From: Roseimicrobium sp. ORNL1
GTDB taxonomy: Bacteria > Verrucomicrobiota > Verrucomicrobiia > Verrucomicrobiales > Verrucomicrobiaceae
Length of the DNA stretch: 64,000 nucleotides
Direction: 5' to 3'
Assembly: GCF_011044495.1 (NCBI RefSeq)
Contig: NZ_CP049143.1
Coordinates: 6,324,001 to 6,388,000 of the forward strand
Below the pieces are notes generated by a model. It was not told the origin of the DNA. It ran no database searches and saw only the letters and a program-made list of their open reading frames with translations. Both the position numbers and the translations under genes were made by a program. Each line of letters opens with the position of its first letter. Within the stretch, counting starts at the first letter, position 1. Of the stretch, positions 38,153-52,104 are shown piece by piece.

Positions 38153-38175
38153 TATACCATAATATGGTATATCAT
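38149..38175. promoter_or_regulatory. 27-bp perfect palindrome, possible operator
   Basis: Arms ATGATATACCATA and TATGGTATATCAT flank a single central A (13+1+13). It overlaps the stop codon of the upstream gene. The 11-bp half TGATATACCAT recurs at 44060-44070, directly in front of the TROVE gene. There is no T-tract, so a protein-binding site is more likely than a terminator. Confidence 0.55.
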
Positions 38176-39054: not shown

Positions 39055-39128
39055 GCGGCCATCGTCCAAGAGCAGGACGCCTGAACGCCATTCAGGGGAT
39101 GTCGGTGCAATTCCGGCTGGCCGCTCCA
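39055..39128 (+). tRNA. tRNA-Gly(GCC), altered elbow
   Basis: Perfect acceptor helix GCGGCCA/TGGCCGC; anticodon loop ACGCCAT (C33, unusual). U73 fits glycine; CCA encoded. The D-loop AAGAGCA lacks GG, and the T-loop TGCAATT has G at position 55. First gene of the array. Confidence 0.85.
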
Positions 39129-39156
39129 ATTTTCATCTCTCATACAAAAAGAGAAC

Positions 39157-39230
39157 ACGGCGGGCGCCAGCCTGCGCAACGGAGTCTCCAAAACTCTGTG
39201 GGACCGGGGCAGCACCGGGACGCCGTGCCA
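39157..39230 (+). tRNA. tRNA-Trp(CCA), altered elbow
   Basis: Anticodon loop CTCCAAA gives CCA; A1:U72 and G73 fit Trp identity. Acceptor pairs 6 of 7. D stem GCGC/GCGC has a 6-nt loop without GG. T-loop GGCAGCA (G55, no A58). CCA encoded. Confidence 0.8.
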
Positions 39231-39359
39231 ATTCAAATCATTGATGATTTGTGATGAGTGATTTTTTGATTTCGGTCCGATGCGGCCATGCAAAGGCGCA
39301 TTTGTGAAGACAGACCTCCAATCAAAAATCATCAATCGTAAATCATAAATTTTACCAAC

Positions 39360-39435
39360 TGCGGAATCGCCAAGGGGTAAGGCAGCGGCCTCATAAGCCG
39401 CTTACACGCGGGTTCGAGTCCCGCTTCCGCTACCA
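39360..39435 (+). tRNA. tRNA-Met/Ile2(CAT) with canonical elbow
   Basis: The only array member with a normal T-loop (TTCGAGT) and GG in the D-loop (AAGGGGTAA). Anticodon stem GCGGC/GCCGC, loop CTCATAA. The body around TCGCCAAGGGGTAAGGCA resembles bacterial tRNA-Gln. U1-U72 mismatch, A73, CCA encoded. Met versus lysidine-modified Ile cannot be settled. Confidence 0.85.
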
Positions 39436-39442
39436 TTTTCAT

Positions 39443-39517
39443 GGGCTGCTCGATCATCTAGAAGGTCACCCGCCTCGCACGCGGGAGAGCAGGGTGCAAC
39501 TCCCTGGCGGTCCACCA
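39443..39517 (+). tRNA. tRNA-Ala(CGC), altered elbow
   Basis: Acceptor GGGCTGC/GCGGTCC contains G3-U70, the alanine identity pair; A73 and CCA present. Anticodon loop CTCGCAC. D-loop ATCTAGAA has AG in place of GG; T-loop TGCAACT has G55. Confidence 0.88.
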
Positions 39518-39534
39518 ATTTCAAACAACACAAT

Positions 39535-39607
39535 CGCGGGAAGGTTGAGCAACCGCGGAAGTCTCATAAGCTTCCTCATCGTGGCGCGACTCCACGTCCC
39601 GCAACCA
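39535..39607 (+). tRNA. tRNA-Met(CAT), initiator-like C1-A72, altered elbow
   Basis: Acceptor CGCGGGA/TCCCGCA leaves a C1-A72 mismatch, the bacterial initiator hallmark. Loop CTCATAA. The D arm is GGTT-GAGC-AACC with only a 4-nt loop. T-loop CGCGACT (G55). The anticodon stem lacks the three G:C pairs usual for initiators. A73, CCA encoded. Confidence 0.8.
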
Positions 39608-39627
39608 ATTTCATGTCACCACGTCAT

Positions 39628-39712
39628 GCGGTGGTAGAGCGCTAAAGATGCGCACTGGTCCGTAAAACCAGAGTCTCAGACCGGCCAGGGGCAGTACCTG
39701 GACGCCGCACCA
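39628..39712 (+). tRNA. tRNA-Tyr(GTA), class II, altered elbow
   Basis: Anticodon stem CTGGT/ACCAG, loop CCGTAAA (C33). A long variable arm (GTCTCAGAC) marks bacterial Tyr. T stem CCAGG with loop GGCAGTA. A73 and CCA present. The last acceptor pair is mismatched. Confidence 0.85.
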
Positions 39713-39730
39713 ATTTCATTCATTCATTAT

Positions 39731-39807
39731 GGCCTGTTAGCTCAGCCACGAAGAGCAACCGCCTGTCGAGCGGAAGGTCGCGGGAGCAATGCCCGCACAG
39801 GCCGCCA
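39731..39807 (+). tRNA. tRNA-Asp(GTC), altered elbow
   Basis: Acceptor GGCCTGT/ACAGGCC perfect; anticodon loop CTGTCGA; G73 fits Asp; CCA encoded. D arm GCTC/GAGC with loop AGCCACGAA (no GG). T-loop AGCAATG has G55. Confidence 0.88.
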
Positions 39808-39835
39808 ATTTCATCCAGCCTCGCTTTTTTTTCAT

Positions 39836-39911
39836 CGCGTGCGAGGGAGCCAACGAACCCGCCTCGTTTGGAGCGAGGAGGCGCCCGGGGTAGCACCGGG
39901 GCACGCGACCA
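39836..39911 (+). tRNA. tRNA-Pro(TGG), altered elbow
   Basis: Acceptor CGCGTGC/GCACGCG with C1:G72 and A73, as in bacterial Pro. Anticodon stem CCTCG/CGAGG, loop TTTGGAG. D-loop AGCCAACGAA; T-loop GGTAGCA (G55, U56). CCA encoded. Confidence 0.87.
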
Positions 39912-39927
39912 ATTTATCCTCATCCAT

Positions 39928-40003
39928 GCTCCCGTGGTCGAAGAGATGAGGCATCCGTCTTCTAAACGGAGATATGCAGGTGCAAGTCCTGCCGGGAGCA
40001 CCT
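39928..40003 (+). tRNA. tRNA-Arg(TCT), altered elbow, no encoded CCA
   Basis: Acceptor GCTCCCG/CGGGAGC perfect; anticodon stem TCCGT/ACGGA, loop CTTCTAA; A73. The 3' end reads CCT instead of CCA, so CCA would need to be added or repaired. T-loop TGCAAGT (G55). Confidence 0.83.
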
Positions 40004-40022
40004 TTCCAATTTTCTTTTCAAA

Positions 40023-40097
40023 TGCCCGCTGATGTCAAAGTAGCAATGGCCGCCTGTTAAGCGGCATGTCGTGGTGCGAGTCCACGGCGGGCAGCCA
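40023..40097 (+). tRNA. tRNA-Asn(GTT), altered elbow
   Basis: Acceptor TGCCCGC/GCGGGCA with U1:A72 and G73 as in Asn; anticodon stem GCCGC/GCGGC, loop CTGTTAA. The D arm is weak (loop CAAAGTA). T-loop TGCGAGT (G55). CCA encoded. Confidence 0.87.
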
Positions 40098-40117
40098 ATT
40101 TCTTGCCAATCATTTTT

Positions 40118-40206
40118 GGAGCACGTCCGGCCAGACGAGGACGCGGTCTTGAAAACCGCTGTTCCACTTCGTGGAATTCGGGGAGCGAGTCCCTGGTGCT
40201 CCGCCA
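40118..40206 (+). tRNA. tRNA-Ser(TGA), class II, altered elbow
   Basis: Acceptor GGAGCAC/GTGCTCC perfect, G73, CCA. Anticodon stem GCGGT/ACCGC, loop CTTGAAA. Long variable helix TTCCAC/GTGGAA identifies Ser. T-loop AGCGAGT (G55). Confidence 0.9.
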
Positions 40207-40226
40207 TTTTCGTGATCATTCATCAC

Positions 40227-40301
40227 GCCCGCATGGTGCAACAGTCAGCACATCCGACTTTCTATCGGAAAATCCCGGGGCAGCACCGGGTGCGGGTGCC
40301 A
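40227..40301 (+). tRNA. tRNA-Glu(TTC) copy 1, altered elbow
   Basis: D stem GTGC/GCAC with loop AACAGTCA; anticodon stem TCCGA/TCGGA, loop CTTTCTA; G73; CCA. T stem CCCGG/CCGGG with loop GGCAGCA. Near-identical to the next gene, so a recent tandem duplication. Confidence 0.88.
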
Positions 40302-40322
40302 CTTTCAAGGTTCATCCTTCAC

Positions 40323-40396
40323 GCCCGCATGGTGCAACAGTAGCACATCCGACTTTCTATCGGAAAATCCCGGGGCAGCACCGGGTGCGGGTGCCA
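40323..40396 (+). tRNA. tRNA-Glu(TTC) copy 2, altered elbow
   Basis: Identical to the preceding gene except for loss of one base in the D-loop (CAGTAGCAC against CAGTCAGCAC). All helices are intact; G73 and CCA present. About 96 bp separates the two starts. Confidence 0.88.
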
Positions 40397-40424
40397 CTTT
40401 CGAAGTTCATACATTCATCCTTCA

Positions 40425-40498
40425 CGCCTGATAGCTCAAAAGGAGAGCAACCGGCTCACATCCGGAAGACAGCGGAGCATTACCGTTTCAGGCGACCA
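40425..40498 (+). tRNA. tRNA-Val(CAC), altered elbow
   Basis: Acceptor CGCCTGA/TCAGGCG perfect; D arm GCTC/GAGC with loop AAAAGGA; anticodon loop CTCACAT; A73; CCA. T-loop AGCATTA (G55). Confidence 0.85.
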
Positions 40499-40508
40499 TT
40501 TTTTTATT

Positions 40509-40582
40509 CCCTCTGTAGCTCAATAGCAAAGCACCCGCCCGATAAGCGGAAGACCGCGGCGCAATACCGTGCGGAGGGACCA
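40509..40582 (+). tRNA. tRNA-Ile(GAT), altered elbow
   Basis: Acceptor CCCTCTG/CGGAGGG with one U-G; anticodon loop CCGATAA (C33); A73; CCA. D-loop CAATAGCAA has AG for GG. T-loop CGCAATA (G55). Confidence 0.85.
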
Positions 40583-40594
40583 CTTTCTTTTCAC

Positions 40595-40670
40595 CGCTGA
40601 ATGGCAGAGTCAGTCAATGCGGCCGATTGAAAATCGGCAAATCCTGGTGCGATTCCAGGTTCAGCGGCCA
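40595..40670 (+). tRNA. tRNA-Phe(GAA), altered elbow
   Basis: Acceptor CGCTGAA/TTCAGCG; anticodon stem GCCGA/TCGGC, loop TTGAAAA. The base before CCA is G, not the A73 usual for Phe. An eighth acceptor pair with the preceding C is possible. D stem GCA/TGC; T-loop TGCGATT. Confidence 0.83.
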
Positions 40671-40684
40671 TTTCGTTTATCCAC

Positions 40685-40758
40685 GCGCCATTGGTGTAGT
40701 AGCAGCACGTCATCCTTCCAAGTTGAGAGTGCCGGGGCAGTACCGGCATGGCGCTCCA
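40685..40758 (+). tRNA. tRNA-Gly(TCC), altered elbow
   Basis: Acceptor GCGCCAT/ATGGCGC perfect; U73 as in Gly; CCA. Anticodon loop CTTCCAA (one U-U mismatch in the stem). D-loop TAGTAGCAG; T-loop GGCAGTA (G55). Confidence 0.85.
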
Positions 40759-40770
40759 CATTTTTCCATT

Positions 40771-40847
40771 GCTCCCGAGGTGTAAGAGATCTGCACGCGG
40801 TTCTGCGAAGACCGAGGCACGAGGTGCGAATCCTCGCGGGAGCACCA
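40771..40847 (+). tRNA. tRNA-Arg(GCG), altered elbow
   Basis: Acceptor GCTCCCG/CGGGAGC perfect; anticodon loop CTGCGAA. GCG is unusual because bacteria normally use ACG (inosine) for this box. A73, CCA. D stem GTG/CAC; T-loop TGCGAAT (G55). Confidence 0.85.
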
Positions 40848-40863
40848 ATTTCTTAGATGCAAT

Positions 40864-40939
40864 TCCTCCGTGGCAGAGTCAGCAATGCACCGCTCTCGTA
40901 AAGCGACCCATGCCGGGGCAGCTCCGGCCGGAGGATCCA
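40864..40939 (+). tRNA. tRNA-Thr(CGT), altered elbow
   Basis: Acceptor TCCTCCG/CGGAGGA perfect; U73; CCA. D stem GCA/TGC with loop GAGTCAGCAA. Anticodon loop CTCGTAA. T stem GCCGG/CCGGC, loop GGCAGCT (G55). Confidence 0.86.
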
Positions 40940-40958
40940 TTTCGTTATCAACCACAAT

Positions 40959-41034
40959 TGCCCTGTAGCTCAACTAGTGGAGCGCCCGACTCTGACTCGG
41001 GAGGTTGACGGTGCGAATCCGCCCGGGGCTGCCA
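40959..41034 (+). tRNA. tRNA-Gln(CTG), altered elbow
   Basis: Anticodon stem CCCGA/TCGGG, loop CTCTGAC; G73. The first acceptor pair is U-U, echoing the weak 1:72 pair needed by GlnRS. D arm GCTC/GAGC with loop AACTAGTG; T-loop TGCGAAT (G55). CCA encoded. Confidence 0.85.
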
Positions 41035-41052
41035 ATTTCCCACGGTAAGAGA

Positions 41053-41148
41053 GGAGACCAAAGCGGACCAGCGTGCCGCCGCCGGTTGGAAGCCGGATGA
41101 ATCCGCGAACCCTCGCGGGTAGTGGAGCATGTCCACTGGTCTCCGCCA
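41053..41148 (+). tRNA. tRNA-Ser(GGA), class II, altered elbow
   Basis: Acceptor GGAGACC/GGTCTCC perfect; G73; CCA. Anticodon loop TTGGAAG. Long variable helix CCGCG/CGCGG. T stem AGTGG/CCACT with loop AGCATGT (G55). Confidence 0.87.
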
Positions 41149-41168
41149 TTTTCAGATTCACGGTCGAT

Positions 41169-41243
41169 GGGCCGCAAGCATTGCCAGCGATGCAGCGGGC
41201 TTTTAATCCGCAGAACACGGGGCAGCACCGTGGCGGCCCACCA
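41169..41243 (+). tRNA. tRNA-Lys(TTT), altered elbow
   Basis: Acceptor GGGCCGC/GCGGCCC perfect; A73; CCA. D stem GCA/TGC with loop TTGCCAGCGA. Anticodon loop CTTTTAA. T stem CACGG/CCGTG, loop GGCAGCA (G55). Confidence 0.88.
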
Positions 41244-41290
41244 TCATCAGGACATTTCGAGTGTTCGTATCACTCACCTCCATCTTCAAT

Positions 41291-41366
41291 GGAGACCATG
41301 GTGTAATAGTACGCATCCAGTTCTGTGAATGCTGTGGTACGGGTGCAATCCCCGTTGGTCTCCCCA
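41291..41366 (+). tRNA. tRNA-His(GTG), with encoded G-1:C73, altered elbow
   Basis: An extra G precedes the 7-bp acceptor and pairs with C73, the hallmark of tRNA-His. Anticodon loop CTGTGAA. T stem ACGGG/CCCGT, loop TGCAATC (G55). CCA encoded. Confidence 0.88.
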
Positions 41367-41387
41367 ATTTCGTTTCGTTCCGTTCAT

Positions 41388-41463
41388 CGCGCGAAAGGTA
41401 AAGTCGTCGAGCCGTCGGTCTGCAAAACCGACTTACCCGGTGCGAGTCCGGGTCGCGCGTCCA
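41388..41463 (+). tRNA. tRNA-Cys(GCA), altered elbow
   Basis: Acceptor CGCGCGA/TCGCGCG perfect; U73 as required for Cys; CCA. Anticodon stem TCGGT/ACCGA, loop CTGCAAA. The D arm is a short GG/CC helix. T-loop TGCGAGT (G55). Confidence 0.87.
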
Positions 41464-41484
41464 TTTCATTCTAACAAACACACA

Positions 41485-41559
41485 CGGGCCAGAGGAAGAA
41501 AGTAATCCGCAAGTCTGGGGGACTTGAGAGAGCCGGAGCGTTACCGGCTGGCCCGACCA
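41485..41559 (+). tRNA. tRNA-Pro(GGG), altered elbow
   Basis: Acceptor CGGGCCA/TGGCCCG with C1:G72 and A73 as in Pro; CCA. Anticodon stem CAAGT/ACTTG, loop CTGGGGG. D-loop contains AAAGTAA. T-loop AGCGTTA (G55). Confidence 0.87.
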
Positions 41560-41581
41560 TTTCTTCAGTTCCATCCTTCAC

Positions 41582-41652
41582 GGGGTCATCGTTCAACAGA
41601 AGGACAGCGTCATGGCATGGCGCGGATCGGGGTGCGACTCCCCGTGACTCCA
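41582..41652 (+). tRNA. tRNA-Ala(GGC), altered elbow, no encoded CCA
   Basis: Acceptor GGGGTCA/TGACTCC carries G3-U70; A73 is followed by CTT, not CCA. D arm GTTC/GGAC with loop AACAGAA. Anticodon loop ATGGCAT. T-loop TGCGACT (G55). Confidence 0.83.
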
Positions 41653-41679
41653 CTTCACGATTCAACTCATTCCTTTTCT

Positions 41680-41754
41680 CGGGCACGAGGAAGACAGCAA
41701 TCCGCGGCGTTCGGATCGGCGAGATACCCGGAGCATCCCCGGGGTGCCCGACCA
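41680..41754 (+). tRNA. tRNA-Pro(CGG), altered elbow
   Basis: Acceptor CGGGCAC/GTGCCCG with C1:G72, A73, CCA. Anticodon loop TTCGGAT; the anticodon stem has one G-G mismatch. D stem GGA/TCC with loop AGACAGCAA. T-loop AGCATCC (G55). Confidence 0.84.
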
Positions 41755-41784
41755 CTTTATACGCAGGCACATCCCATATCGAAC

Positions 41785-41857
41785 AGCCCTGTAGCTCAAC
41801 TCGCAGAGCGCCCGGTTTTGGCCCGGGAGGTTGATGGTGCAAATCCATCCGGGGTTA
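41785..41857 (+). tRNA. tRNA-Gln(TTG), altered elbow, no encoded CCA
   Basis: Anticodon stem CCCGG/CCGGG, loop TTTTGGC. D arm GCTC/GAGC, loop AACTCGCA. T-loop TGCAAAT (G55). Acceptor AGCCCTG pairs with two U-G; the 3' end reads ATCG, so CCA is absent. Confidence 0.78.
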
Positions 41858-41882
41858 TCGATTGCAAGGTGCGTCTCATGCC

Positions 41883-41957
41883 GCGCCAATAGCTCAATAG
41901 AAGAGCGCCGTCCTGACACGGCGGAGGCCGGCGGGGCAGAACCGTCTTGGCGCACCA
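41883..41957 (+). tRNA. tRNA-Val(GAC), altered elbow
   Basis: Acceptor GCGCCAA/TTGGCGC perfect; A73; CCA. D arm GCTC/GAGC, loop AATAGAA. Anticodon loop CTGACAC. T stem GGCGG/CCGTC, loop GGCAGAA (G55). Confidence 0.86.
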
Positions 41958-41986
41958 CTTCACTTCCATTTCATTTCATCAACAAT

Positions 41987-42062
41987 GCTCCCGTAGCTCA
42001 ATGTATAGAGTGCCGCGCTTCGAACGCGGAGGTTGCAGGCGAAAGTCCTGCCGGGAGTACCA
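41987..42062 (+). tRNA. tRNA-Arg(TCG), altered elbow
   Basis: Acceptor GCTCCCG/CGGGAGT (one G-U); anticodon stem CCGCG/CGCGG, loop CTTCGAA; A73; CCA. D-loop AATGTATA lacks GG. T-loop CGAAAGT has G55 and A56, the most divergent of the set. Confidence 0.86.
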
Positions 42063-42075
42063 CTTTCAATTTCTC

Positions 42076-42151
42076 CCCGGCGTAGTCCAACAGCAGAGAC
42101 AATCCGCTCAGAACGGATGCAGTGCGGGTGCAACTCCTGCCGCCGGGACCA
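42076..42151 (+). tRNA. tRNA-Leu(CAG), short variable arm, altered elbow
   Basis: Acceptor CCCGGCG/CGCCGGG perfect; A73; CCA. Anticodon loop CTCAGAA. The variable region is five bases (GCAGT), although bacterial Leu is normally class II. D-loop contains AACAGCAGA. T-loop TGCAACT (G55). Confidence 0.84.
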
Positions 42152-42153
42152 TT

Positions 42154-42366
42154 TCAAGTGTCTAAAAATAGGCACTCAATCCGATAGCATGGTTCAAAAA
42201 GTATCAGTTGCCAATGCGCATCAGGTCCCACGTTTGACCGTGGTCCATATAAGACAGGTCGAACAAGCAGGTACAGTCCCACATAGCCAGCGATTAAGAA
42301 TGTCGCCGCAATGATGGCTATCGCTGATGAGCGACTGTGTTTGCCATACGGATCGGTCTGAGACAT
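42154..42366 (-). CDS. small single-helix membrane protein inside the tRNA array
   Basis: A 70-residue frame opposite to the array, in the largest gap between tRNA genes. SAIAIIAATFLIAGYVGLYLLV forms a clear membrane helix after a polar N-terminus (MSQTDPYGKHSR). GGAG lies about 13 bp upstream of the start. No family recognised. It could be a regulator, toxin-like peptide or chance frame. Confidence 0.4.
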   Translation of the reverse strand: MSQTDPYGKHSRSSAIAIIAATFLIAGYVGLYLLVRPVLYGPRSNVGPDAHWQLILFEPCYRIECLFLDT

Positions 42367-42422
42367 CGATCACAACCAACTCCGTGGCGGCAACTAGTCA
42401 ATTTTTCTAACGCCAATTCAAC

Positions 42423-42498
42423 GCCCACGTAGCCCAACAGCAGAGGCAGCGATCTCAAACATCGTACAGTGCGGGTGCGACTCCCGCCGTGGGCACCA
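42423..42498 (+). tRNA. tRNA-Leu(CAA), short variable arm, altered elbow
   Basis: Acceptor GCCCACG/CGTGGGC perfect; A73; CCA. Anticodon loop CTCAAAC. Variable region ACAGT only. D arm GCC/GGC with AACAGCAGA. T-loop TGCGACT (G55). First tRNA after the 270-bp gap. Confidence 0.84.
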
Positions 42499-42522
42499 TC
42501 AATTTCCATTTTTGCCATCCAT

Positions 42523-42617
42523 GGAAGAGAGGCGACTAGCCAGGTCGTCGCGCTTGTTTGCTAAACAGGTGTTCCCTTCATCGGGAACTGCGGGGGCAGC
42601 ACCCGCCTCTTCCGCCA
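42523..42617 (+). tRNA. tRNA-Ser(GCT), class II, altered elbow
   Basis: Acceptor GGAAGAG/CTCTTCC perfect; G73; CCA. Anticodon stem CTTGT/ACAGG, loop TTGCTAA. Long variable helix GTTCCC/GGGAAC. T stem GCGGG/CCCGC, loop GGCAGCA (G55). Confidence 0.87.
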
Positions 42618-42645
42618 CTTTCATCAGTGTTTGTAATTTTCCGCC

Positions 42646-42791
42646 CCATGATTCCTGCAGGGGCCTCGCAATCGACGGCATCGAGCTCCGGCACCATCAC
42701 CAACTATCCAGCATGATCTGGAAACTGTGGGTCACGGGATGGCAGATCGAAAGCTCGTGCTCATTTTGCGGGCCCCCTGCAGGAATCATGG
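42646..42791. repeat. long inverted repeat in the tRNA array
   Basis: Arms of about 20 bp (CCATGATTCCTGCAGGGGCC at 42646-42665; complement at 42771-42791 with one extra C) flank 105 bp without a tRNA fold I can complete. It could be a miniature mobile element or a long RNA hairpin between Ser(GCT) and Leu(GAG). Confidence 0.6.
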
Positions 42792-42818
42792 CGGGACATT
42801 TCGATTCATCCTTCTCAT

Positions 42819-42894
42819 GGTCGCGTAGCCCAATAGCAGAGGCACGGCGTCGAGAGCGCCGGTAGTGCTGGTGCAAGTCCAGTCGCGACTACCA
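42819..42894 (+). tRNA. tRNA-Leu(GAG), short variable arm, altered elbow
   Basis: Acceptor GGTCGCG/CGCGACT (one G-U); A73; CCA. Anticodon stem CGGCG/CGCCG, loop TCGAGAG (C33). Variable region GTAGT only. D arm GCC/GGC with AATAGCAGA. T-loop TGCAAGT (G55). Confidence 0.84.
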
Positions 42895-42915
42895 TTTTCC
42901 CAGTTCATCATTTAC

Positions 42916-42990
42916 GGGCTTGAAGCTTTGGCAGCGAAGCAACCGCCTCTTAAGCGGAAGAGCAGGGTGCATATCCCTGCGAGCCCACCA
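42916..42990 (+). tRNA. tRNA-Lys(CTT), altered elbow, last of the array
   Basis: Acceptor GGGCTTG/CGAGCCC; A73; CCA. D arm GCTT/AAGC, loop TGGCAGCG. Anticodon loop CTCTTAA. T stem CAGGG/CCCTG, loop TGCATAT (G55). The Y-RNA-like genes begin 3 bp after its CCA. Confidence 0.86.
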
Positions 42991-42993
42991 ATT

Positions 42994-43090
42994 TTCCGGC
43001 AGTCAGGTATCGGGATACTTCGGTTCTTACAGGTTCGACTCCTGTCACCTCCACCTACGGGGGTGATGCCCGCGCCACTTTTCTCCGGAA
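42994..43090 (+). ncRNA. Y-RNA-like gene 1
   Basis: Basal helix TTCCGG (42994-42999) with CCGGAA (43085-43090), bulged C at 43000, then AG paired with CT (43083-43084). Inside are a canonical T arm (ACAGG-TTCGACT-CCTGT) and the helix CACCTCC/GGGGGTG closed by a 6-nt loop, which is a permuted acceptor stem. The D arm is degenerate. A Ro60-binding role is inferred from similarity to its six neighbours and the adjacent TROVE gene. Confidence 0.7.
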
Positions 43091-43096
43091 TCCACT

Positions 43097-43226
43097 TTGC
43101 GGCAGTAAGACCAGAGTTCCTTCGTCAATTGAATCGTTCGGGTAACCCTGAATCTTCAACGTGGGTGCAAATCCCACAGCGTGCGGAGCAATCCTCGCGT
43201 GTGTCTCGGGTCAACTTTCTCCGCAA
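43097..43226 (+). ncRNA. Y-RNA-like gene 2
   Basis: Basal helix TTGCGG/CCGCAA, bulged C at 43103, AG:CT pair as in all copies. Second helix GACCAGAG with CTCGGGTC (7 of 8 pairs). It contains GAGTTCCTTCGTC and a T-arm-like GTGGG-TGCAAAT-CCCAC, whose loop has the array-type G55. The acceptor-like part is imperfect. Confidence 0.68.
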
Positions 43227-43276
43227 TCATCACTTTCGGCGGCAAGGCTTCTGGAGAGGCCTCCTACATTCAAATT

Positions 43277-43409
43277 TCGAGGTAGTGAAATTGGAGATCC
43301 TTCGTCCAAACACGACAGGTCGCTGGTTCGAGTCCAGCCGATGGCTTATTCGATGCCATCGTAGCTCAGGGGTTAGAGCGGTATCGGCTCCGATTGGTTT
43401 TCTCCTCGA
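43277..43409 (+). ncRNA. Y-RNA-like gene 3 with a circularly permuted tRNA module
   Basis: Basal helix TCGAGG/CCTCGA with bulged U and AG:CT; second helix ATTGGAG/CTCCGAT. Inside, in order: hairpin TCGT/ACGA, T arm GCTGG-TTCGAGT-CCAGC (43322-43338), acceptor 3' strand CGATGGC (43339-43345), 9-nt joining loop, acceptor 5' strand GCCATCG (43355-43361), TA, D arm GCTC-AGGGGTTA-GAGC. That is a tRNA opened in the anticodon region and joined at the acceptor end, as in YrlA-type Y RNAs. Followed by TTTCTTTTTT. Confidence 0.8.
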
Positions 43410-43466
43410 TTTCTTTTTTGTATCATCTGATGGCGGCGCATCTGAAGGTGCGTGCCACGTTCCCTT

Positions 43467-43631
43467 TCGGGGCAGTGAGACTGGAGTTACTTCGACTCGT
43501 AATCGACAGGTTGCCGGTTCAATTCCGGCCATCGGCGCCCATTTCTCAGCTGATGTAGCTCAATGGTAGAGCGGTAGGCGGCATCGTGAGATTCATGGTG
43601 CCGCCATTCCTCCGGTCATTGTTCTCCCCGA
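43467..43631 (+). ncRNA. Y-RNA-like gene 4 with a circularly permuted tRNA module
   Basis: Basal helix TCGGGG/CCCCGA with bulged C and AG:CT; second helix GACTGGAG/CTCCGGTC (8 bp). Inside: anticodon-like arm TCGA-CTCGTAA-TCGA, T arm GCCGG-TTCAATT-CCGGC, acceptor 3' strand CATCGGC, joining loop GCCCATTTCTCA, acceptor 5' strand GCTGATG, TA, D arm GCTC-AATGGTA-GAGC, then hairpin GGCGGCA/TGCCGCC. The elbow is canonical. The joining loop resembles the CCA-TTTC spacer of the tRNA array. Confidence 0.8.
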
Positions 43632-43696
43632 TCTTTTCTATGTATCAAACGGGGCTGTGAGCGTCTGCCATGTGCGGCGCTCTGCCCCAACCCTTC

Positions 43697-43763
43697 GGGG
43701 TAGTGAGGTTGGAGTTCCTTCGTCTGCTCTTAACAAACAAATACTCCGGCCACTGTTCTCCCC
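43697..43763 (+). ncRNA. Y-RNA-like gene 5, minimal form without tRNA module
   Basis: 67 nt: helix GGGG/CCCC, bulged U, AG:CT, small internal loop, then an extended helix pairing GGTTGGAGT (43707-43715) with ACTCCGGCC (43743-43751). The apical loop contains TCCTTCGTC. It lacks a T arm or acceptor, so it shows the bare stem presumed to bind Ro60. Followed by AATATTTTT. Confidence 0.7.
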
Positions 43764-43781
43764 AATATTTTTCAATCAATT

Positions 43782-43925
43782 TTCGCGGTAGTGAAGACGG
43801 GACTTCTTCGCAACCTCCACCATCCATCACACCGATCGCCATCGCCTGTCGGAGGAATGCCGGAAACGGCATCAGGTTCGATTCCTGACGATGCGGTGTG
43901 AGAGCCTGTCTGCTTTCTCCGCGAA
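43782..43925 (+). ncRNA. Y-RNA-like gene 6 with a non-permuted mini-tRNA module
   Basis: Basal helix TTCGCGG/CCGCGAA with bulged U and AG:CT; second helix GACGGG/CCTGTC. Inside, helices CACACCG/CGGTGTG and CATCG/CGATG enclose, in normal tRNA order, a small D-like arm CCT-GTCGG-AGG, an anticodon-like arm ATGCCG-GAAA-CGGCAT and a canonical T arm CAGG-TTCGATT-CCTG. It differs from copies 3 and 4, where the order is permuted. Followed by eight T. Confidence 0.75.
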
Positions 43926-43993
43926 TTTTTTTCATCTCATTTCCTATGCCTGCGCCGAGCGCGCCGGCATGCCACGCCGCAGCAAAATAAACT

Positions 43994-44053
43994 GCGGGGC
44001 AGTGAGACCATGTGCCTCTTCGGGAAATAGAGGCCGCTCATCGTGCTCCCCGT
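43994..44053 (+). ncRNA. Y-RNA-like gene 7, minimal form next to TROVE gene
   Basis: 60 nt: helix GCGGGG/CCCCGT, bulged C, AG:CT, TGAG/CTCA and an apical hairpin CCTCT/AGAGG. No tRNA module. It ends 21 bp before the TROVE start codon, with the palindrome half-site TGATATACCAT between them, so it may also act as the mRNA leader. Confidence 0.68.
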
Positions 44054-44059
44054 ACACCC

Positions 44060-44070
44060 TGATATACCAT
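44060..44070 (+). promoter_or_regulatory. half-site TGATATACCAT upstream of TROVE gene
   Basis: Exact 11-bp match to one arm of the 38149-38175 palindrome, placed 4 bp before the TROVE ATG. It could be a shared operator half-site or RNA/protein recognition sequence. No second arm is visible here. Confidence 0.4.
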
Positions 44071-44074
44071 CACC

Positions 44075-45505
44075 ATGAAGTTCAATATCCTCAAGACCGG
44101 CCGTGCGCGTGGCAACACCCTCAACAAGGCCGGTGGCGAAGCCTACGTCGAAACGGCGAAGCTCGAACTCGCCTCCCTGCTCTTGACGAGCATCCTGGGT
44201 GACCAGTACTACCGCACAGCGAATGCCGCTACGAAGCGCATCAAGGAACTCGTCGCGCAGACGGGTGACAAGAAATTCGTGGCCAAGGCTGCGCTCTACG
44301 CTCGTAAGGAAGCGGGTATGCGCTCAGTCTCCCACCTCGTGGCGAGTGAACTCGCCCACGCGGTGAAGGGTGAACCGTGGACTGCGACGTTCTACGACCG
44401 TGTCGTGCATCGTCCGGATGATGCGCTGGAAACGCTGGCGTGTTACGTTGGCACGTACGGCCGCCCGATCCCGAACGCCCTGAAGAAGGGTCTCGGCAAG
44501 GCGTTGGCCCGTTTCGACGAATACCAGATCGCGAAGTACCGCAAGACGAACGCGGAGATCTCCCTCGTGGACCTGGTGAACCTCGTTCACCCACCGCACA
44601 CGGAGGCCCTGCGCAAGCTGGTCAACGGCACGCTCGCTCCTGCGGAAACGTGGGAAACGAAGCTGACGCAGGCCGGTGCGAATGCGGAAAGTGATGCCGA
44701 ACTGGCGGATCTGAAGAAGGACGCCTGGACGGAGCTCATCCGCATGCGCAAGCTGGGCTACTTCGCGCTTCTGCGTAACCTGCGCAACATCGTGGCCACA
44801 GCGCCCGATGCGATCGATGACGCGATCGTGATGCTCACGGACGAGCGTCTCATCAAGAAGTCGCTCGTCATGCCGTTCCGTTTCACGACAGCGCTCGAAG
44901 CGCTGCAGGGCTCCGGTCTTCCGGGTGTCAGCCGCGTGCTCGCCGCGCTCAGTGATGCGGTGGATGCTTCCCTCGCCAATGTCCCGCGCTACGAAGGCAA
45001 GACCCTCGTGGCCCTGGATGGCTCAGGATCCATGATGGGCAAGCCGATCAAGATCGGTGCACTCTTCACGGCGACGCTCGCCAAGGCGAACGATGCCGAC
45101 GTGCTTCTCTTCAGCAATGATGCGAAGTACGTGTCCATCAACAAGCGCGACTCCACCCTGACGGTGGCCAACTGGCTGGAACGCCAGTGCGCCTCCGCCG
45201 GCACGAACTTCCACGCGATTTTCAACCGCGCGGCGAGTTCCTACGACCGCATCATCATCCTCTCTGACATGCAGGGCTGGATCGGCCAATATACGCCGGT
45301 CGCCAGCTTCGATGCGTGGAAGGCGAAGTATGGTGCGTCCCCCAAGGTCTTCTCCTTCGACCTCCAGGGCTACGGCACGCTGCAGTTCCCGCAGCGTGAT
45401 GTGTACTGCCTGGCGGGTTTCTCGGACAAGACGTTCGACACGCTCCAGCGTCTTGAGTCTGATCAGGCGGCGTTCCTGAAGCAGATCGAGGCGATTGAGC
45501 TGTAG
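44075..45505 (+). CDS. rsr: TROVE-domain protein (Ro60/Rsr orthologue)
   Basis: A 476-residue TROVE protein. Residues about 20-300 are HEAT-like helical repeats that form the RNA-binding ring in Ro60 proteins (DKKFVAKAALYARKEAGMRSVSH, DALETLACYVGTYG). Residues 305-476 form a vWA domain with the MIDAS motif LDGSGSM near 315, lacking other enzyme motifs. Ro60 proteins bind Y RNAs and misfolded RNAs. Direct adjacency to seven Y-RNA-like genes supports this function. There is no obvious Shine-Dalgarno. Followed by a terminator-like hairpin. Confidence 0.92.
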   Translation: MKFNILKTGRARGNTLNKAGGEAYVETAKLELASLLLTSILGDQYYRTANAATKRIKELVAQTGDKKFVAKAALYARKEAGMRSVSHLVASELAHAVKGEPWTATFYDRVVHRPDDALETLACYVGTYGRPIPNALKKGLGKALARFDEYQIAKYRKTNAEISLVDLVNLVHPPHTEALRKLVNGTLAPAETWETKLTQAGANAESDAELADLKKDAWTELIRMRKLGYFALLRNLRNIVATAPDAIDDAIVMLTDERLIKKSLVMPFRFTTALEALQGSGLPGVSRVLAALSDAVDASLANVPRYEGKTLVALDGSGSMMGKPIKIGALFTATLAKANDADVLLFSNDAKYVSINKRDSTLTVANWLERQCASAGTNFHAIFNRAASSYDRIIILSDMQGWIGQYTPVASFDAWKAKYGASPKVFSFDLQGYGTLQFPQRDVYCLAGFSDKTFDTLQRLESDQAAFLKQIEAIEL

Positions 45506-45561: not shown

Positions 45562-46332
45562 ATGAAGCCACTCCTCACCCTCGCAAACCTTTCCCGTCTC
45601 AACTCTCTCACCAAGTATCCGTCCATCCCGACCTACCATGCGTTGGGTGACAAAGGGCGGCTCACGCCGGAGGTGAATGTGGCCTTCACCAGTGATGTCC
45701 ATGTCACCGAAAAGGTGGATGGCACCAATGCGCGGCTTGTGTGCACTCCGGAAGGGGTACTCATCGGCAGTCGCGAAGATTTGCTCTGGGCCACTGGCGA
45801 CCTGATTCACAACCCGGCACTCGGCATTGTGGATACACTTCGTGACTTTGCCCACCAACTGCGTGACCACAGCTTCACAGAAGCCGTCGTGGTCTTCTAC
45901 GGTGAAGTCTACGGTCACGGGGTTGGTGCGGCGGCGAAGCAGTATGCCAGTCAAGGCACCAGGGGCTTTCGCCTCTTCGATGTCTGTCTTCTGAAGGCAG
46001 ACCTGGTCAGCGACATGCTTGCCAGACCCGCAGAACAGATCTCTGCCTGGCGGGAACACAGCGGACAGACCTTCGCGTCTGTGTCCGCTTGTGATGCGCT
46101 GGCCGCTCGTTTTGGCTTCGCGCGCGTACCCATGTCCGGAGTCTACTCTTGCGATGTGTGGCCACGAGGTCTCACCGATGCGCGGGACTTCCTGAATGGT
46201 TTTGCGGAGAGCAAGGCCAGGCTGGACGGCGCTGCTCTGGGCAAGGCGGAAGGCATCGTGGCTCGCACGGCGGATCGCAGTCAGATCGCCAAGCTGCGAT
46301 TTGAAGACTATCAGCGCACCCTTGGCAGGTAA
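45562..46332 (+). CDS. ATP-dependent RNA ligase (Rnl2-like)
   Basis: A 256-residue nucleotidyltransferase-fold ligase. Motif I is EKVDGTN with the adenylated Lys near residue 51, motif III is FYGEVYGHG near 113, motif IV is AEGIVAR near 231 and motif V is KLRFEDYQR near 245. There is no C-terminal accessory domain, so the enzyme is short, as in small Rnl2/DRB0094-like ligases. It would seal 3'-OH/5'-phosphate nicks in RNA, chemically distinct from the RtcB reaction encoded 4 kb downstream. Confidence 0.85.
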   Translation: MKPLLTLANLSRLNSLTKYPSIPTYHALGDKGRLTPEVNVAFTSDVHVTEKVDGTNARLVCTPEGVLIGSREDLLWATGDLIHNPALGIVDTLRDFAHQLRDHSFTEAVVVFYGEVYGHGVGAAAKQYASQGTRGFRLFDVCLLKADLVSDMLARPAEQISAWREHSGQTFASVSACDALAARFGFARVPMSGVYSCDVWPRGLTDARDFLNGFAESKARLDGAALGKAEGIVARTADRSQIAKLRFEDYQRTLGR

Positions 46333-46390: not shown

Positions 46391-46500
46391 CACGGAGTTC
46401 CGCGCATCGTGACACTCTTGGCTTCATCTGGCTCATAACCGGAAGGGAAACTGGGTTCGACTCCCAACAAGCAAGTCACGCCAGCGGCCTGCACCCCGTG
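46391..46500 (+). ncRNA. structured RNA with tRNA(CAT)-like tip between ligase and slipin
   Basis: Nested helices CACGG/CCGTG, CCGC/GCGG and CGTGAC/GTCACG (46408-46413 with 46475-46480) lead to CTTG/CAAG. The tip holds an anticodon arm CTGG-CTCATAA-CCGG and a canonical T arm TGGG-TTCGACT-CCCA, with no D arm. It shares GGAGTTCC with the Y-RNA-like genes. A Y RNA or tRNA decoy is the best guess. Confidence 0.55.
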
Positions 46501-46608
46501 CGAGCCCCGACATGGCCATGCGCGACGGGCATTTGCCACGTCGCCCGCCATGAAGCGGCGGCCGCTGTCGTGATTACCTCTTTCTCAATCAACCACTCAA
46601 CAACTCCC

Positions 46609-47406
46609 ATGAATCTCGAATACCAACTTCTCATCCTGGCTGCGTGCCTTATCACGGCACGTGTGCTGTGGGTGCGCTACCACTACGAATGTCTTATCAC
46701 TGAGGGCTGTGAAGGTCTCCTGTACCATGAAGGTCGGCTGGTGGATACACTCCGCGCGGGTCGTCATGTGCGCTGGGGCCGCAACTTCCGCGTCGATGTG
46801 ATTGGCGTGCGCAAGACGCTGCTTCAGGTCGCCGGCCAGGAAGTGCTTACAGCGGACAATGTGAGCGTGAAGCTGAGCGCGGTGCTCACCATGCAGATTG
46901 TCGATGCTGCGAAGAGTGTGCTCGTGGCGGATAGCTACCTCACCCATCTCTACAACACCACCCAAGCCGCGATGCGCGTGGCGGTGGGAGGCATCACTGC
47001 GGAAGCGTTGCTGGAACAGCGTGCGGCCATCAGCGAGCAGCTTCGTGCCGGAGTGCAGACGGTGGCGGAATCCGTCGGCGTGCAATTGCATGCGGTGGAA
47101 GTTCGCGACGTGATGCTGCCTGGTGACCTTCGCAAGGCTTTCAGCGAAACGCTCAAGGCCAAGCAGGAAAGCCAGGCCGCCCTGGAGCGTGCCCGCGGAG
47201 AATCCGCGGCGCTGCGTCATCTCGCGAACACCGCCCGCCTGATGGAAAGCCATCCAGGACTCACCACGCTGCGCTTCCTGCAAACGCTCGAAGCGAAGGG
47301 CGCAGGGCAGACTTACATGATGAATGATCTGTCCGCGCTGCTGCCAGTCTTGCGAGGGCGCGGCGGAGTGAATACCGATAACAGTGATGATGCGAGCGCG
47401 GTGTGA
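46609..47406 (+). CDS. SPFH/band-7 (slipin-like) protein
   Basis: 265 residues from ATG 46609; the longer frame from 46498 would run through a hairpin. An N-terminal membrane helix (residues 5-20) is followed by an SPFH domain (GRHVRWGRNFRVDVIGVRKTLLQVAGQEVLTADNVSVKLSAVLTM) and a coiled-coil (LKAKQESQAALERARGESAALRH). Slipins form membrane microdomain scaffolds. Its position between RNA ligase and RlaP suggests it anchors the repair proteins, which is inference. Confidence 0.85.
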   Translation: MNLEYQLLILAACLITARVLWVRYHYECLITEGCEGLLYHEGRLVDTLRAGRHVRWGRNFRVDVIGVRKTLLQVAGQEVLTADNVSVKLSAVLTMQIVDAAKSVLVADSYLTHLYNTTQAAMRVAVGGITAEALLEQRAAISEQLRAGVQTVAESVGVQLHAVEVRDVMLPGDLRKAFSETLKAKQESQAALERARGESAALRHLANTARLMESHPGLTTLRFLQTLEAKGAGQTYMMNDLSALLPVLRGRGGVNTDNSDDASAV

Positions 47407-47433
47407 TTCTCCTCGTGATTCGACGTCCTCATT

Positions 47434-47538
47434 TTGGGTAGACCTCAGGAGACGTACACAGCAGCAAGCTGCCTCGGGAAGCTGGAGCAAGCTCAGCACT
47501 CCAAGTGATGCTGCGCATCAATGCGGCCGTCTCCCCAA
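47434..47538 (+). ncRNA. multi-hairpin intergenic RNA candidate between slipin and RlaP
   Basis: TTGGG (47434-47438) pairs with CCCAA (47534-47538), followed by a U-C mismatch and AG:CT as in the Y-RNA-like family. Inside are hairpins GCAG/CTGC, GAGC/GCTC, CACT/AGTG and GATGC/GCATC. There is no complete tRNA fold. It ends about 40 bp before the RlaP start. Confidence 0.4.
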
Positions 47539-47578
47539 GCCAATCAATTTCTCTCAACCCCACACCGATAGAAGCCCC

Positions 47579-48361
47579 ATGTTCGACTCCCAAGTATATC
47601 AACGCGTCCGAGAAACGCTTTCCAATCTCGAAACCGAACGCGGACTACGCGTGCTCTATGCCTGTGAAAGCGGCAGCCGTGCGTGGGGATTCGCCTCCCG
47701 TGACAGCGACTATGACGTGCGCTTCCTCTATGTGCACAACCGTGACTGGTACCTCTCCGTGGATGAACGTCGCGATGTCGTGGAGCTTCCTGTTTTGGAT
47801 GAGCTCGATGTCAGTGGCTGGGAGTTGCGCAAAGCTCTCAAGCTTCTGAGGAAGAGCAATCCGCCCCTGCTGGAGTGGCTGAAGTCGCCGGTGGTTTATC
47901 ATCGGGATCCAATGTTCACCACGGAGTTCAGCACGCTGGCGGAGGAGTTCTACTCACCGCGGCGATGCTTCGCGCACTACCTGCACATGGCCTTTGGCAA
48001 CTGGCGCCACTACCTGGAAGGTCGTGAACGCGTGAGTCTGAAGAAGTACCTGTATGTCTTCAGGCCGCTGCTGGCCTGTCGCTGGCTGGAGCGTGAGCTT
48101 GGCCAGGTGCCGATGCTCTTCTCTGAGCTGGTGGAAGCCGCGCTGGAGGAGCCGGAGGTGCGTCAGGCACTCGATGCGCTGGTGCAGCGCAAGCAGGCCG
48201 GTGATGAACTGGACGAAGCAGCGCCGGATGAGGTGCTGTCGCGTTTTGTTCGCGAGGAACTGGCCCGGCTGGATGCGCTCAAGGAGCCGCAGGATGCGGC
48301 GGGTGATGTGGAAGAGCTGAATCGGTTCTTCCGCAGGTATGCGCTTGAAGGGGTGTCGTGA
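47579..48361 (+). CDS. RlaP-type nucleotidyltransferase (COG3541)
   Basis: A 260-residue polymerase-beta-superfamily protein. The catalytic signature ESGSRAWGFASRDSDYDVRF (residues 30-49) contains GS and the DxD acids. A helical C-terminal region follows (RRCFAHYLHMAFGNWRHY, KKYLYVFRPLLACRWLE). RlaP proteins are named for association with RNA ligases and are thought to add nucleotides to RNA ends before ligation. Here one lies two genes after a ligase, supporting RNA end repair. Confidence 0.85.
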   Translation: MFDSQVYQRVRETLSNLETERGLRVLYACESGSRAWGFASRDSDYDVRFLYVHNRDWYLSVDERRDVVELPVLDELDVSGWELRKALKLLRKSNPPLLEWLKSPVVYHRDPMFTTEFSTLAEEFYSPRRCFAHYLHMAFGNWRHYLEGRERVSLKKYLYVFRPLLACRWLERELGQVPMLFSELVEAALEEPEVRQALDALVQRKQAGDELDEAAPDEVLSRFVREELARLDALKEPQDAAGDVEELNRFFRRYALEGVS

Positions 48362-49811: not shown

Positions 49812-49908
49812 GGAGGTCTATCCACATCCCGGGATCTTTGTCATCATGGAGCATCCCTCTCCTTCCCTTTTCTCTTTTTACTTATCCCTATTTCACTCTC
49901 ATTTTTTC

Positions 49909-51345: not shown

Positions 51346-51448
51346 TCCGGTGAGCGGTAGGACGGTGGTGAGTGTCTCAAGCAGTAGGTGACCAAGAGGT
51401 CGCTGGTCACTTGGGTGCCGCCGCTGTTCCGCTCATGGGTCAACCGGA
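51346..51448 (+). ncRNA. structured RNA between rtcB and HNH gene, Y-RNA-like architecture
   Basis: TCCGGT/ACCGGA and GAGCGG/CCGCTC form a basal stem, then U, AG:CT, a GTT internal loop and a second helix CGGTGG/CCGCCG. The apex has GTGACCA/TGGTCAC. The order of helix, bulged U, AG:CT and upper helix matches the seven Y-RNA-like genes, but there is no tRNA module. Confidence 0.5.
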
Positions 51449-51528
51449 GTGCCAGAAGCCAGACTCACATTCAGTATCATTTCACATCATGTTTTATCCA
51501 CTCATCCTATACCGACAATCTTGATCCT

Positions 51529-52104
51529 ATGCACCTTCATCTCCCAACTGTTCTTGTGCTGAACCGAAACTGGCAGGCGATTCACGTGAAGACTCCGGCT
51601 GAGGCGTTCTGTATGATGTCCACTGGTGCCGCCACCGGTCTTGATGTGCAAGACGATGCCTCCATCATCCCCGTGACATGGGACCAGTGGCAGAAGCTGC
51701 CGGTGCGTGAGCATGACCAGTCGGTGCGCACCACAAGCGGACCGCTGCGTATTCCCACGGTGATCGTGTCTGCGCACTATGCCAGAATGCCCCTGCGACG
51801 CCCGCGCTTCAGTGCGCGTGGCATCTGGCAGCGTGACGGTGGCCTGTGCCAGTACACGGGCCGCAAGCTCGCGCCCGGCGAAGGCAACATCGACCACGTC
51901 GTTCCGCGGTCCCGCGGAGGCAAGTCCACGTGGGAAAACTGCGTGCTCGCGCACCGTGAAGTGAACTCCCGCAAGGGAAGCAAACTTCCGCAGGAAGCGG
52001 GACTTCGCCTGCGCCAGACGCCCGTGACACCGCGGGCGATCCCGGCCAGCATGGCGATTCGAAACCTACACGGCGTGCGCGACTGGGAACACTTCCTCGG
52101 GTGA
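51529..52104 (+). CDS. HNH endonuclease family protein
   Basis: 191 residues from ATG 51529. The N-terminal half (VLNRNWQAIHVKTPAEAFCMM) is a small alpha/beta domain. The HNH core is CQYTGRKLAPGEGNIDHVVPRSRGGKSTWENCVLAHREVNSRKG at about 115-160 (written with gaps: CQYTG, DHVVPRSRGG, WENC, CNxxK-like REVNSRKG). Such single-domain HNH proteins follow a pattern seen in RtcB neighbourhoods, but the target is unknown. It ends the island. Confidence 0.82.
   Translation: MHLHLPTVLVLNRNWQAIHVKTPAEAFCMMSTGAATGLDVQDDASIIPVTWDQWQKLPVREHDQSVRTTSGPLRIPTVIVSAHYARMPLRRPRFSARGIWQRDGGLCQYTGRKLAPGEGNIDHVVPRSRGGKSTWENCVLAHREVNSRKGSKLPQEAGLRLRQTPVTPRAIPASMAIRNLHGVRDWEHFLG

Follow-up and report, generated by a model that had tools for sequence, protein, structure and literature searches.

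In the genome of Roseimicrobium sp. ORNL1, seven RNA genes defined by a common stem lie end to end directly 5' of a gene for a Ro60/TROVE protein. We studied them in a window of 64,000 nucleotides (contig NZ_CP049143.1, forward strand, positions 6,324,001 to 6,388,000); coordinates below are positions in this window, and papers are cited by PMC number for the parts of their text that were accessible. The genes occupy 42994-44054 on the plus strand, where an earlier reading of the DNA (the original prediction) had placed them, and we found all seven of its copies. Judged from their sequence, they probably encode bacterial Y RNAs, a reading to which we give a probability of roughly 0.8; as such they may be bound by Ro60 and may serve tRNA-reading partners or act as decoys. 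The Y-RNA reading, already proposed in the original prediction, is supported by the position before Ro60 (in 26 or 28 of 32 loci), by a covarying bulged helix, by matches to the Rfam YrlA family below its threshold, and by stems of the same type 5' of the TROVE gene of a Deinococcus plasmid. Also in its favour are the upper helix, the excess of double changes over shuffles in the Y1, Y2 and Y4 classes, the jointly switching D- and T-loop states of the Y2 class, the fold of the Ro60 protein and the adjoining genes for an RNA ligase, RlaP, RtcB and a Band_7 protein. The distance from the Y genes to the Ro60 start codon (44075) ranges from 20 nt to 1.1 kb, the adjacency expected of bacterial Y RNAs.

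The seven genes are 62-165 nt long, are separated by gaps of 6-67 nt, and share one architecture. A terminal helix that covaries and ends in GG/CC carries a bulged pyrimidine and is followed by an AG/CT step, an internal loop and an upper helix, above which stands an exchangeable module. The 5' end of each copy consists of the outer pairs, GG, a single pyrimidine and AGT, and the 3' end of CTCC followed by the complement. With G-T pairs allowed, six of the seven copies have four or five standard pairs beyond GG/CC; Y5 has only two. Some details of the original prediction needed revision. A sequence said to be common to several copies, GGAGTTCCTTCGTC, is exact in Y5 alone, with near versions in Y2, Y3 and Y4, and the T-runs said to follow several copies are present after Y3, Y4, Y5 and Y6 and absent after Y1, Y2 and Y7.

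We assembled homologous loci through their Ro60 genes. A search of 57 relatives gave Ro60 matches in 22, nine of them close (including the present genome), and a search of 288 genomes of the order gave close orthologues (E up to 1e-60) in 33, from 11 of 50 genera. We analysed 32 of these 33 loci, the present one included; the one left out, from genome G127, has its match at a contig start. The others are labelled L030-L037 and L067-L089, and L030 is a sister species in the same genus. A strict rule of motif plus pairing found 70 Y stems 5' of Ro60 in 26 of the 32 loci, with up to seven per locus (63 stems in 25 of 31 loci without the present genome). A relaxed census, which omits Y5 of the present genome because of its short helix, found 89 upstream sites in 28 of the 32 loci, with one site on the other strand and two downstream. 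For control scans we used a rule of GGYAGT, CTCC and at least four flank pairs. This rule found 65 sites in the 60,264 sense bases upstream of Ro60 in the 32 loci, none on the antisense strand of the same DNA, none on either strand of 166,606 downstream bases and none in 148,558 sense bases further upstream; in 1,205,280 bases shuffled letter by letter it found four.

Because the census and the control scans impose both motif and pairing, only a selection made without regard to pairing tests the helix independently. Using the 5' and 3' motifs alone, we selected 66 sites in 25 loci, setting aside six sites that lack the 3' motif by this rule (among them Y7 of the present genome). We found that 220 of 264 flank pairs were formed; 5000 shuffles averaged 146.7 and never exceeded 172. 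As the copies are related by descent, the shuffle number is no probability. The four outer positions were paired in 57, 56, 54 and 53 of the 66 sites (shuffle means 28.6, 46.3, 40.7 and 31.1). The covarying basal helix of the original prediction was thus upheld with more homologues, and a chance origin of the stems was rejected by the control DNA, the shuffles and the relaxed census.

The bulge itself had been described as an invariant pyrimidine. When we left the bulged base free and required at least 4 bp, it was C in 73 cases, T in eight and A in two, so that it is mostly a pyrimidine but not invariant; no unbulged version of the stem was found in the same scan. The core of the 70 strict copies, in which C/T and part of the core are imposed by selection, reads GG, then C (61) or T (9), then AGT, then G (61), A (8) or C (1), then A. 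CTTCG occurs within the first 48 nt of 63 of these copies, and 80% of the 70 have an upper helix of at least six contiguous pairs, a share that falls to 54% if the 3' arm of a random copy is substituted. The stems therefore have the covarying, bulged terminal helix that is characteristic of bacterial Y RNAs.

The modules above the stem differ from copy to copy, and several of their classes recur in other genera. The Y4 class (18 rows, including Y3) has the order hairpin, T-arm, acceptor hairpin, D-arm; as predicted from sequence, this is a circularly permuted tRNA opened between the D-arm and the anticodon arm. Its first hairpin would correspond to the anticodon arm, given its place and loops such as CUCAUAA; the module of Y4 itself has a hairpin in the anticodon position and an additional long hairpin. 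The Y2 class (12 rows) is linear, with a D-arm, an anticodon-like arm and a T-arm, and the UUCG/CGAR of the Y stem replaces the acceptor. The Y1 class (nine rows) has T-arm or hairpin forms, and the Y6 class (11 rows from 11 loci in three genera) is a cruciform with a T-arm. The Rfam YrlA model (RF02553) matched Y3 with 30.7 bits (43315-43382) and Y4 with 31.8 bits (43506-43575), and matches were also found in five of five further loci (32.7-44.5 bits). The permuted tRNA-like domain of YrlA is present in Y3, Y4 and their class of 18 and absent from Y5 and Y7; the Y2 class has another topology.

The loops of these modules offer a link with the tRNA-like genes upstream. In the Y2 class, a D-loop GG occurs with a T-loop UUC, and AG with UGC, in 11 of 11 copies that keep both arms; these states were entered by hand, one T-loop (L035) by eye, and the Y2 of the present genome, without a D-arm, was left out. 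Y2-class RNAs would carry either elbow code, switching both halves jointly. The Y4 class has GG with TTC in 18 of 18 rows.

Immediately 5' of the Y genes lies an array of tRNA-like genes, most of them with an exchanged elbow. Rfam tRNA matches at or above gathering number 22 in the array (18 with default filters), ARAGORN names 13 genes, and a search by structure alone, which uses only cloverleaf geometry within 7.5 kb upstream of Ro60, finds 28 cloverleafs, all 28 with G55. Elsewhere the genome has 48 Rfam tRNAs, a housekeeping set that covers 20 amino acids by ARAGORN. The T-loop begins with TTC in 47 of these 48 and in only one of the 18 array genes scored (18 of the 22 Rfam matches). Across the 32 loci, the structure-only search found 494 sense-strand genes (in 31 loci) and 20 on the other strand; it overlooks the TTC gene at 39360 as well as one of the 48 housekeeping tRNAs, and one of the 494 hits overlaps a Y stem. 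G55 is present in 437 of the 494 (409 of 466 without the present genome), U55 in 50 and C56 in 466, so that most array members do not have the ordinary elongator elbow (G18-U55, G19-C56), and all 47 housekeeping tRNAs found by the same search have U55. Positions 18 and 55 are coupled: with 96 odd D-loops and 66 other genes of the 494 set aside, GG occurs with U55 in 36 genes and with G55 in three, and AG with U55 in one and with G55 in 292. Positions 54 and 58 also covary (T-A 214, G-G 75, A-T 65 and C-A 31 of 417), with a mutual information of 1.06 compared with at most 0.037 in shuffles.

Other features speak to tRNA identity; here and in the elbow counts, shared descent of isotypes inflates the numbers. 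Among the G55 genes, G3:U70 is present in 12 of 12 with Ala anticodons and in six of 425 others, U33 is kept in 382 of 437, and CCA is encoded in 344 of 437 (36 of 47 among the housekeeping genes). Counter to full tRNA identity, A73 is found in 29 of 37 Gly-type array genes, where housekeeping Gly has U73; C73 is found in nine of 28 His-type and G73 in nine of 21 Phe-type genes; and the array genes are less strict than the housekeeping tRNAs at positions 8 and 15-48. Ser-type genes are nearly absent (one of 437). The tRNA clusters of Planctomycetes are held to be partially degraded and perhaps dispensable (PMC4807772). The predominance of G55 and its coupling to A18, set against the U55 of the housekeeping genes, run counter to such a decayed-cluster reading.

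Several observations weigh against the Y-RNA reading or limit it. Four of the 32 loci have no Y stem even in the relaxed census, two of them with less than 2 kb upstream. No YrlA match reaches the gathering threshold of 69 bits, and the matches of Y3 and Y4 are confined to the tRNA-like part of the model (positions 24-84); Y5 and Y7 are minimal and lack a tRNA module. The class structures were predicted from the same alignments in which they were scored and are hence favoured over shuffles in the number of pairs with double changes: 16 in the Y4 class (shuffle maximum 13), 18 in the Y2 class (mean 8.2, maximum 14) and 11 in the Y1 class (maximum 9). The Y6 class has only four such pairs, equal to its shuffle maximum of four; 96.6% of its cells are paired, compared with a shuffle maximum of 95.2%. 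On the Ro60 tree, the D-loop and T-loop traits of the Y2 class each change five times, jointly in four independent pairs, too few for significance (sign test, p 0.125). No sigma-70-like promoter was found in 42700-44100, and transcription from upstream is therefore assumed. The repair genes near Ro60, as traced by tblastn, vary among the loci, and the sister stretch gave no tblastn match at 1e-10 to the RNA ligase. Finally, between the two sister species the Y genes are not uniformly more conserved than the spacers.

If the seven genes do encode Y RNAs, the neighbouring Ro60 ring would bind each of them via its bulged terminal helix, much as in Deinococcus, where Rsr is bound at the lower stem of the Y RNA and is tethered to PNPase (PMC4726728). 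The tRNA-shaped modules may then recruit tRNA-reading enzymes to the Ro60 particle, which could be an exonuclease (in Deinococcus this is PNPase) or the RNA ligase, RlaP and RtcB encoded alongside; alternatively, the modules may mimic tRNA to block tRNA-cutting enzymes. A single Ro60 could in this way become a scaffold for handling tRNA damage, with several interchangeable RNA adaptors. More tentatively, and with rather less than even odds in our estimate, the Y RNAs and the tRNA-like array might belong to a single system centred on Ro60. In it, a second and nearly complete set of tRNAs with a re-coded elbow (A18/G55, G19-C56 kept), distinguishable from housekeeping tRNAs by elbow-reading enzymes, would be deployed, guarded or repaired via Ro60-Y RNA particles when normal tRNAs are attacked.

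Three alternatives have to be weighed. In the first, the Y RNAs would join the tRNA array in serving chiefly to decoy tRNA-cutting toxins and would not act as Ro60 tethers; this overlaps in part with the explanation that we favour and seems unlikely as the principal role. The modules appear to imitate both linear and permuted tRNA, with hairpins in the anticodon position; RNA-repair genes are neighbours; and the tRNA-like domain of Salmonella YrlA has been proposed as a competitive inhibitor of an anticodon nuclease (PMC7790460). A decoy would not account for Y5 and Y7, which have no tRNA module, and what all copies have in common is the stem and not the tRNA part.

The sister species bears on a second alternative, that the copies are functionless, decaying remnants of one ancestral Y RNA in a decaying, horizontally acquired tRNA cluster. 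The sister, whose Ro60 is 95% identical, also has seven Y copies, the first of which is written GGCAGCGAGG; its Y5 has four outer pairs (TTGGGG/CCCCAA). Identity to the sister copy is 92% for Y1, 68% for Y2, 95% for Y3, 71% for Y5 and 85% for Y7, compared with 47-97% for the spacers. The low values for Y2 and Y5 and the loss here of a Y2 D-arm that the sister keeps would suit decay, as would the published view of the Planctomycetes clusters (PMC4807772). We nonetheless regard decay as improbable: stem changes compensate one another, classes are common to several genera, the D- and T-loop states switch jointly, and the array tRNAs have coupled 18/55 and 54/58 changes and keep G3:U70 in the Ala-type genes. 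As a separate observation, the Y3 copies of the two species are near-identical apart from the loop of the first hairpin, where their sequences differ completely. The third alternative is that the stems are not separate RNAs but cis-acting hairpins, for leader or processing functions, in a single long transcript of the tRNA genes and Ro60. It fits the absence of an internal sigma-70-like promoter and the short gaps but is also improbable, because every unit closes on itself, in most cases with its own module, and because the class adjoining Ro60 differs among loci.

The features of the locus are collected in the table below.

Features of the Ro60 locus (window positions)
Feature	Position	Strand	Basis or description
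tRNA-like gene array	39055-42987	+	single strand; most members with exchanged elbow (A18, G55)
Y1	42994-43090	+	terminal helix TTCCGG/CCGGAA, bulged C; T-arm (TTCGACT loop) and hairpin, without D-arm
Y2	43097-43226	+	terminal helix TTGCGG/CCGCAA; linear tRNA-like class, D-arm lost in present copy
Y3	43277-43409	+	terminal helix TCGAGG/CCTCGA, bulged T; circularly permuted tRNA module
Y4	43467-43631	+	terminal helix TCGGGG/CCCCGA, bulged C; circularly permuted tRNA module
Y5	43697-43763	+	minimal Y stem, GGGG/CCCC, bulged T
Y6	43782-43925	+	terminal helix TTCGCGG/CCGCGAA, bulged T; cruciform with T-arm
Y7	43993-44054	+	minimal Y stem, terminal helix TGCGGGG/CCCCGTA; ends 20 nt 5' of Ro60
Ro60/TROVE protein, 476 aa	44075-45505	+	Pfam TROVE 64.5 bits (cutoff 23)
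RNA ligase	45562-46332	+	Pfam RNA_ligase 61.8 bits
tRNA-like RNA directly 5' of Band_7 gene	46408-46480	+	fold; 85% identity over 68 nt with sister species
SPFH/Band_7 protein	46498-47406	+	Pfam Band_7 96 bits
RlaP nucleotidyltransferase	47384-48361	+	Pfam RlaP 296.7 bits
RtcB RNA ligase	49846-51330	+	Pfam RtcB 290.7 bits

Besides its TROVE domain, the Ro60 protein has the Ro60 fold with a vWA domain and a metal ion-dependent adhesion site (MIDAS). D315, S317 and S319 of the MIDAS-type DGSGS are invariant in 17 sequences, and the AlphaFold model (predicted local distance difference test score, pLDDT, 84) has Ro60, Rsr or TROVE proteins at all of Foldseek ranks 1-13, including the PDB entries 2nvo (E 9e-14), 2i91 and 1yvp. 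Pfam vWA_Ro60 scores 20.3 bits, below its cutoff of 27.7, and the NCBIfam RNA-bind_Rsr equivalog scores 27.1 bits of the 900 required; by this score the protein is a distant relative of that equivalog and not a member. In the downstream order, an aldo-keto reductase gene on the other strand lies between RlaP and RtcB. Padloc gave no name for any of the five Ro60 and repair proteins. In 2016, Burroughs and Aravind reportedly described RNA-repair systems in which Y RNAs and a tRNA-like RNA accompany TROVE and Band-7 modules.

Further observations were made around these genes. In the sister species, a Band_7 gene follows closely 3' of Ro60, where the present locus has the RNA ligase. At 51388-52104 lies a small protein whose C-terminal stretch weakly matches Cas9, IscB and PtuB models and is probably an HNH domain. 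The spacers 43410-43466, 43632-43694 and 43926-43992 contain imperfect palindromes, seen by eye, such as GGCGCATC...GGTGCGTGCC. An inverted repeat with the half-site GATATACCAT lies at 38150-38175, 5' of the tRNA array, and a single half-site recurs at 44059-44070, just before Ro60; a scan of the other 31 Ro60 loci for a looser form of this repeat gave no match. Protein-coding content of the Y region was rejected, as the only open reading frames are such as 42865-43569 and 43230-43532, which overlap each other on opposite strands.

We also scanned 21 named TROVE loci, up to 2 kb on either side of the gene. A GGYAGT stem lies 5' of TROVE in two of the 21, a plasmid of Deinococcus taeanensis (two copies, one of which is also a YrlA match with 40.8 bits) and a Saprospiraceae contig (one copy). 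Near the TROVE gene and Y stems of this plasmid, positions 2928-3277 of locus L143 match transfer-messenger RNA (tmRNA) with 169 bits. YrlA-type stems were counted in 13 loci, leaving aside hits that fall within a TROVE or RtcB gene at two loci: there are five in tandem in Rhizobium sp. Kim5 and four each in plasmids of Methylosinus trichosporium and Novosphingobium sp. THN1, those of the latter 3' of the TROVE gene, and the remaining loci have no stem by that rule, though some have weak Rfam YrlA matches. The statement in the original prediction that one or two Y RNAs per genome are usual was therefore too low, given four or five in tandem in three alphaproteobacterial plasmids. We also rejected the seven-copy array as a unique trait, as three of 13 other TROVE loci have four or five stems. 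These stems make tandem Y arrays a wider theme, of which the GGYAGT stem is one of at least two types. A scan of genome contigs gave seven distant loci, 32-54% identical. The TROVE gene of an uncultured huge phage (49% identity) has no GGYAGT stem and no convincing tRNA array; as a side observation, ATACTTCG, which resembles the CTTCG core of the Y RNAs, occurs twice 5' of it (L138:9532, 9620). Annotated tRNA genes likewise surround the TROVE gene of Streptomyces phage BRock.

The link between TROVE genes and tRNA clusters is not new, having been published for archaeal clusters (PMC6333295), where a TROVE gene is present in 20 of 29 and, in one genome, 17 of 31 cluster tRNAs are called pseudogenes. 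These clusters resemble the present locus in joining a TROVE gene with a cluster of tRNA genes, but in two haloarchaeal plasmid clusters the T-loops are TTC in 10 of 10 and 11 of 11 tRNAs found, and no GGYAGT-type stem was found in either. The Planctomycetes clusters resemble the present array as groups of many tRNAs, there described as partly degraded (PMC4807772), and the Anabaena trn operon is similar in having 26 genes that are silent until translational stress and share one repressor with rtcB (PMC10272220); they differ in that the accessible text of these papers describes no Ro60, Y RNA or 18/55 exchange. The open-access titles and starts of abstracts that were listed contained no earlier report of the 18/55 exchange or of linear tRNA-like Y RNAs, which is weak evidence of absence as subscription papers are mostly outside this search. 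Because positions 18 and 55 are exchanged jointly in hundreds of array tRNAs, clusters that are called degenerate may instead be functional sets of tRNAs with a re-coded structure.

YrlA, like the present RNAs, lies beside rsr/Ro60 and has a terminal stem and a tRNA-like domain that runs from T-arm through acceptor hairpin to D-arm, as in Y3 and Y4. In contrast, the present copies score below gathering and have an extra hairpin in the anticodon position, and the other copies are linear or lack a tRNA module; the terminal stem is GG-Y-AGTGA/CTCC here and CGAATG/GTCG in Rhizobium-type loci. Vertebrate Y RNAs likewise have a terminal helix with a single bulged C, which is the Ro60 site (PMC4726728), but their GGUCCGA motif (PMC11277228) is other than the present stem motif. 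The Salmonella rsr-yrlBA-rtcBA operon resembles the present locus in bringing together Ro60, more than one Y RNA and RtcB; it differs in that two Y RNAs are named between rsr and rtcBA and, in the accessible text, no tRNA array is described (PMC7790460). Bacterial Ro60 and its Y RNAs are said there to have been studied only in Deinococcus. The seven-Y locus, with several tRNA-mimic topologies next to RNA-repair genes, provides natural variants with which to ask what each module recruits. Compared with these known systems, what is new here is that a Y array 5' of Ro60 combines several tRNA-mimic topologies and passes without a break into a re-coded tRNA array.

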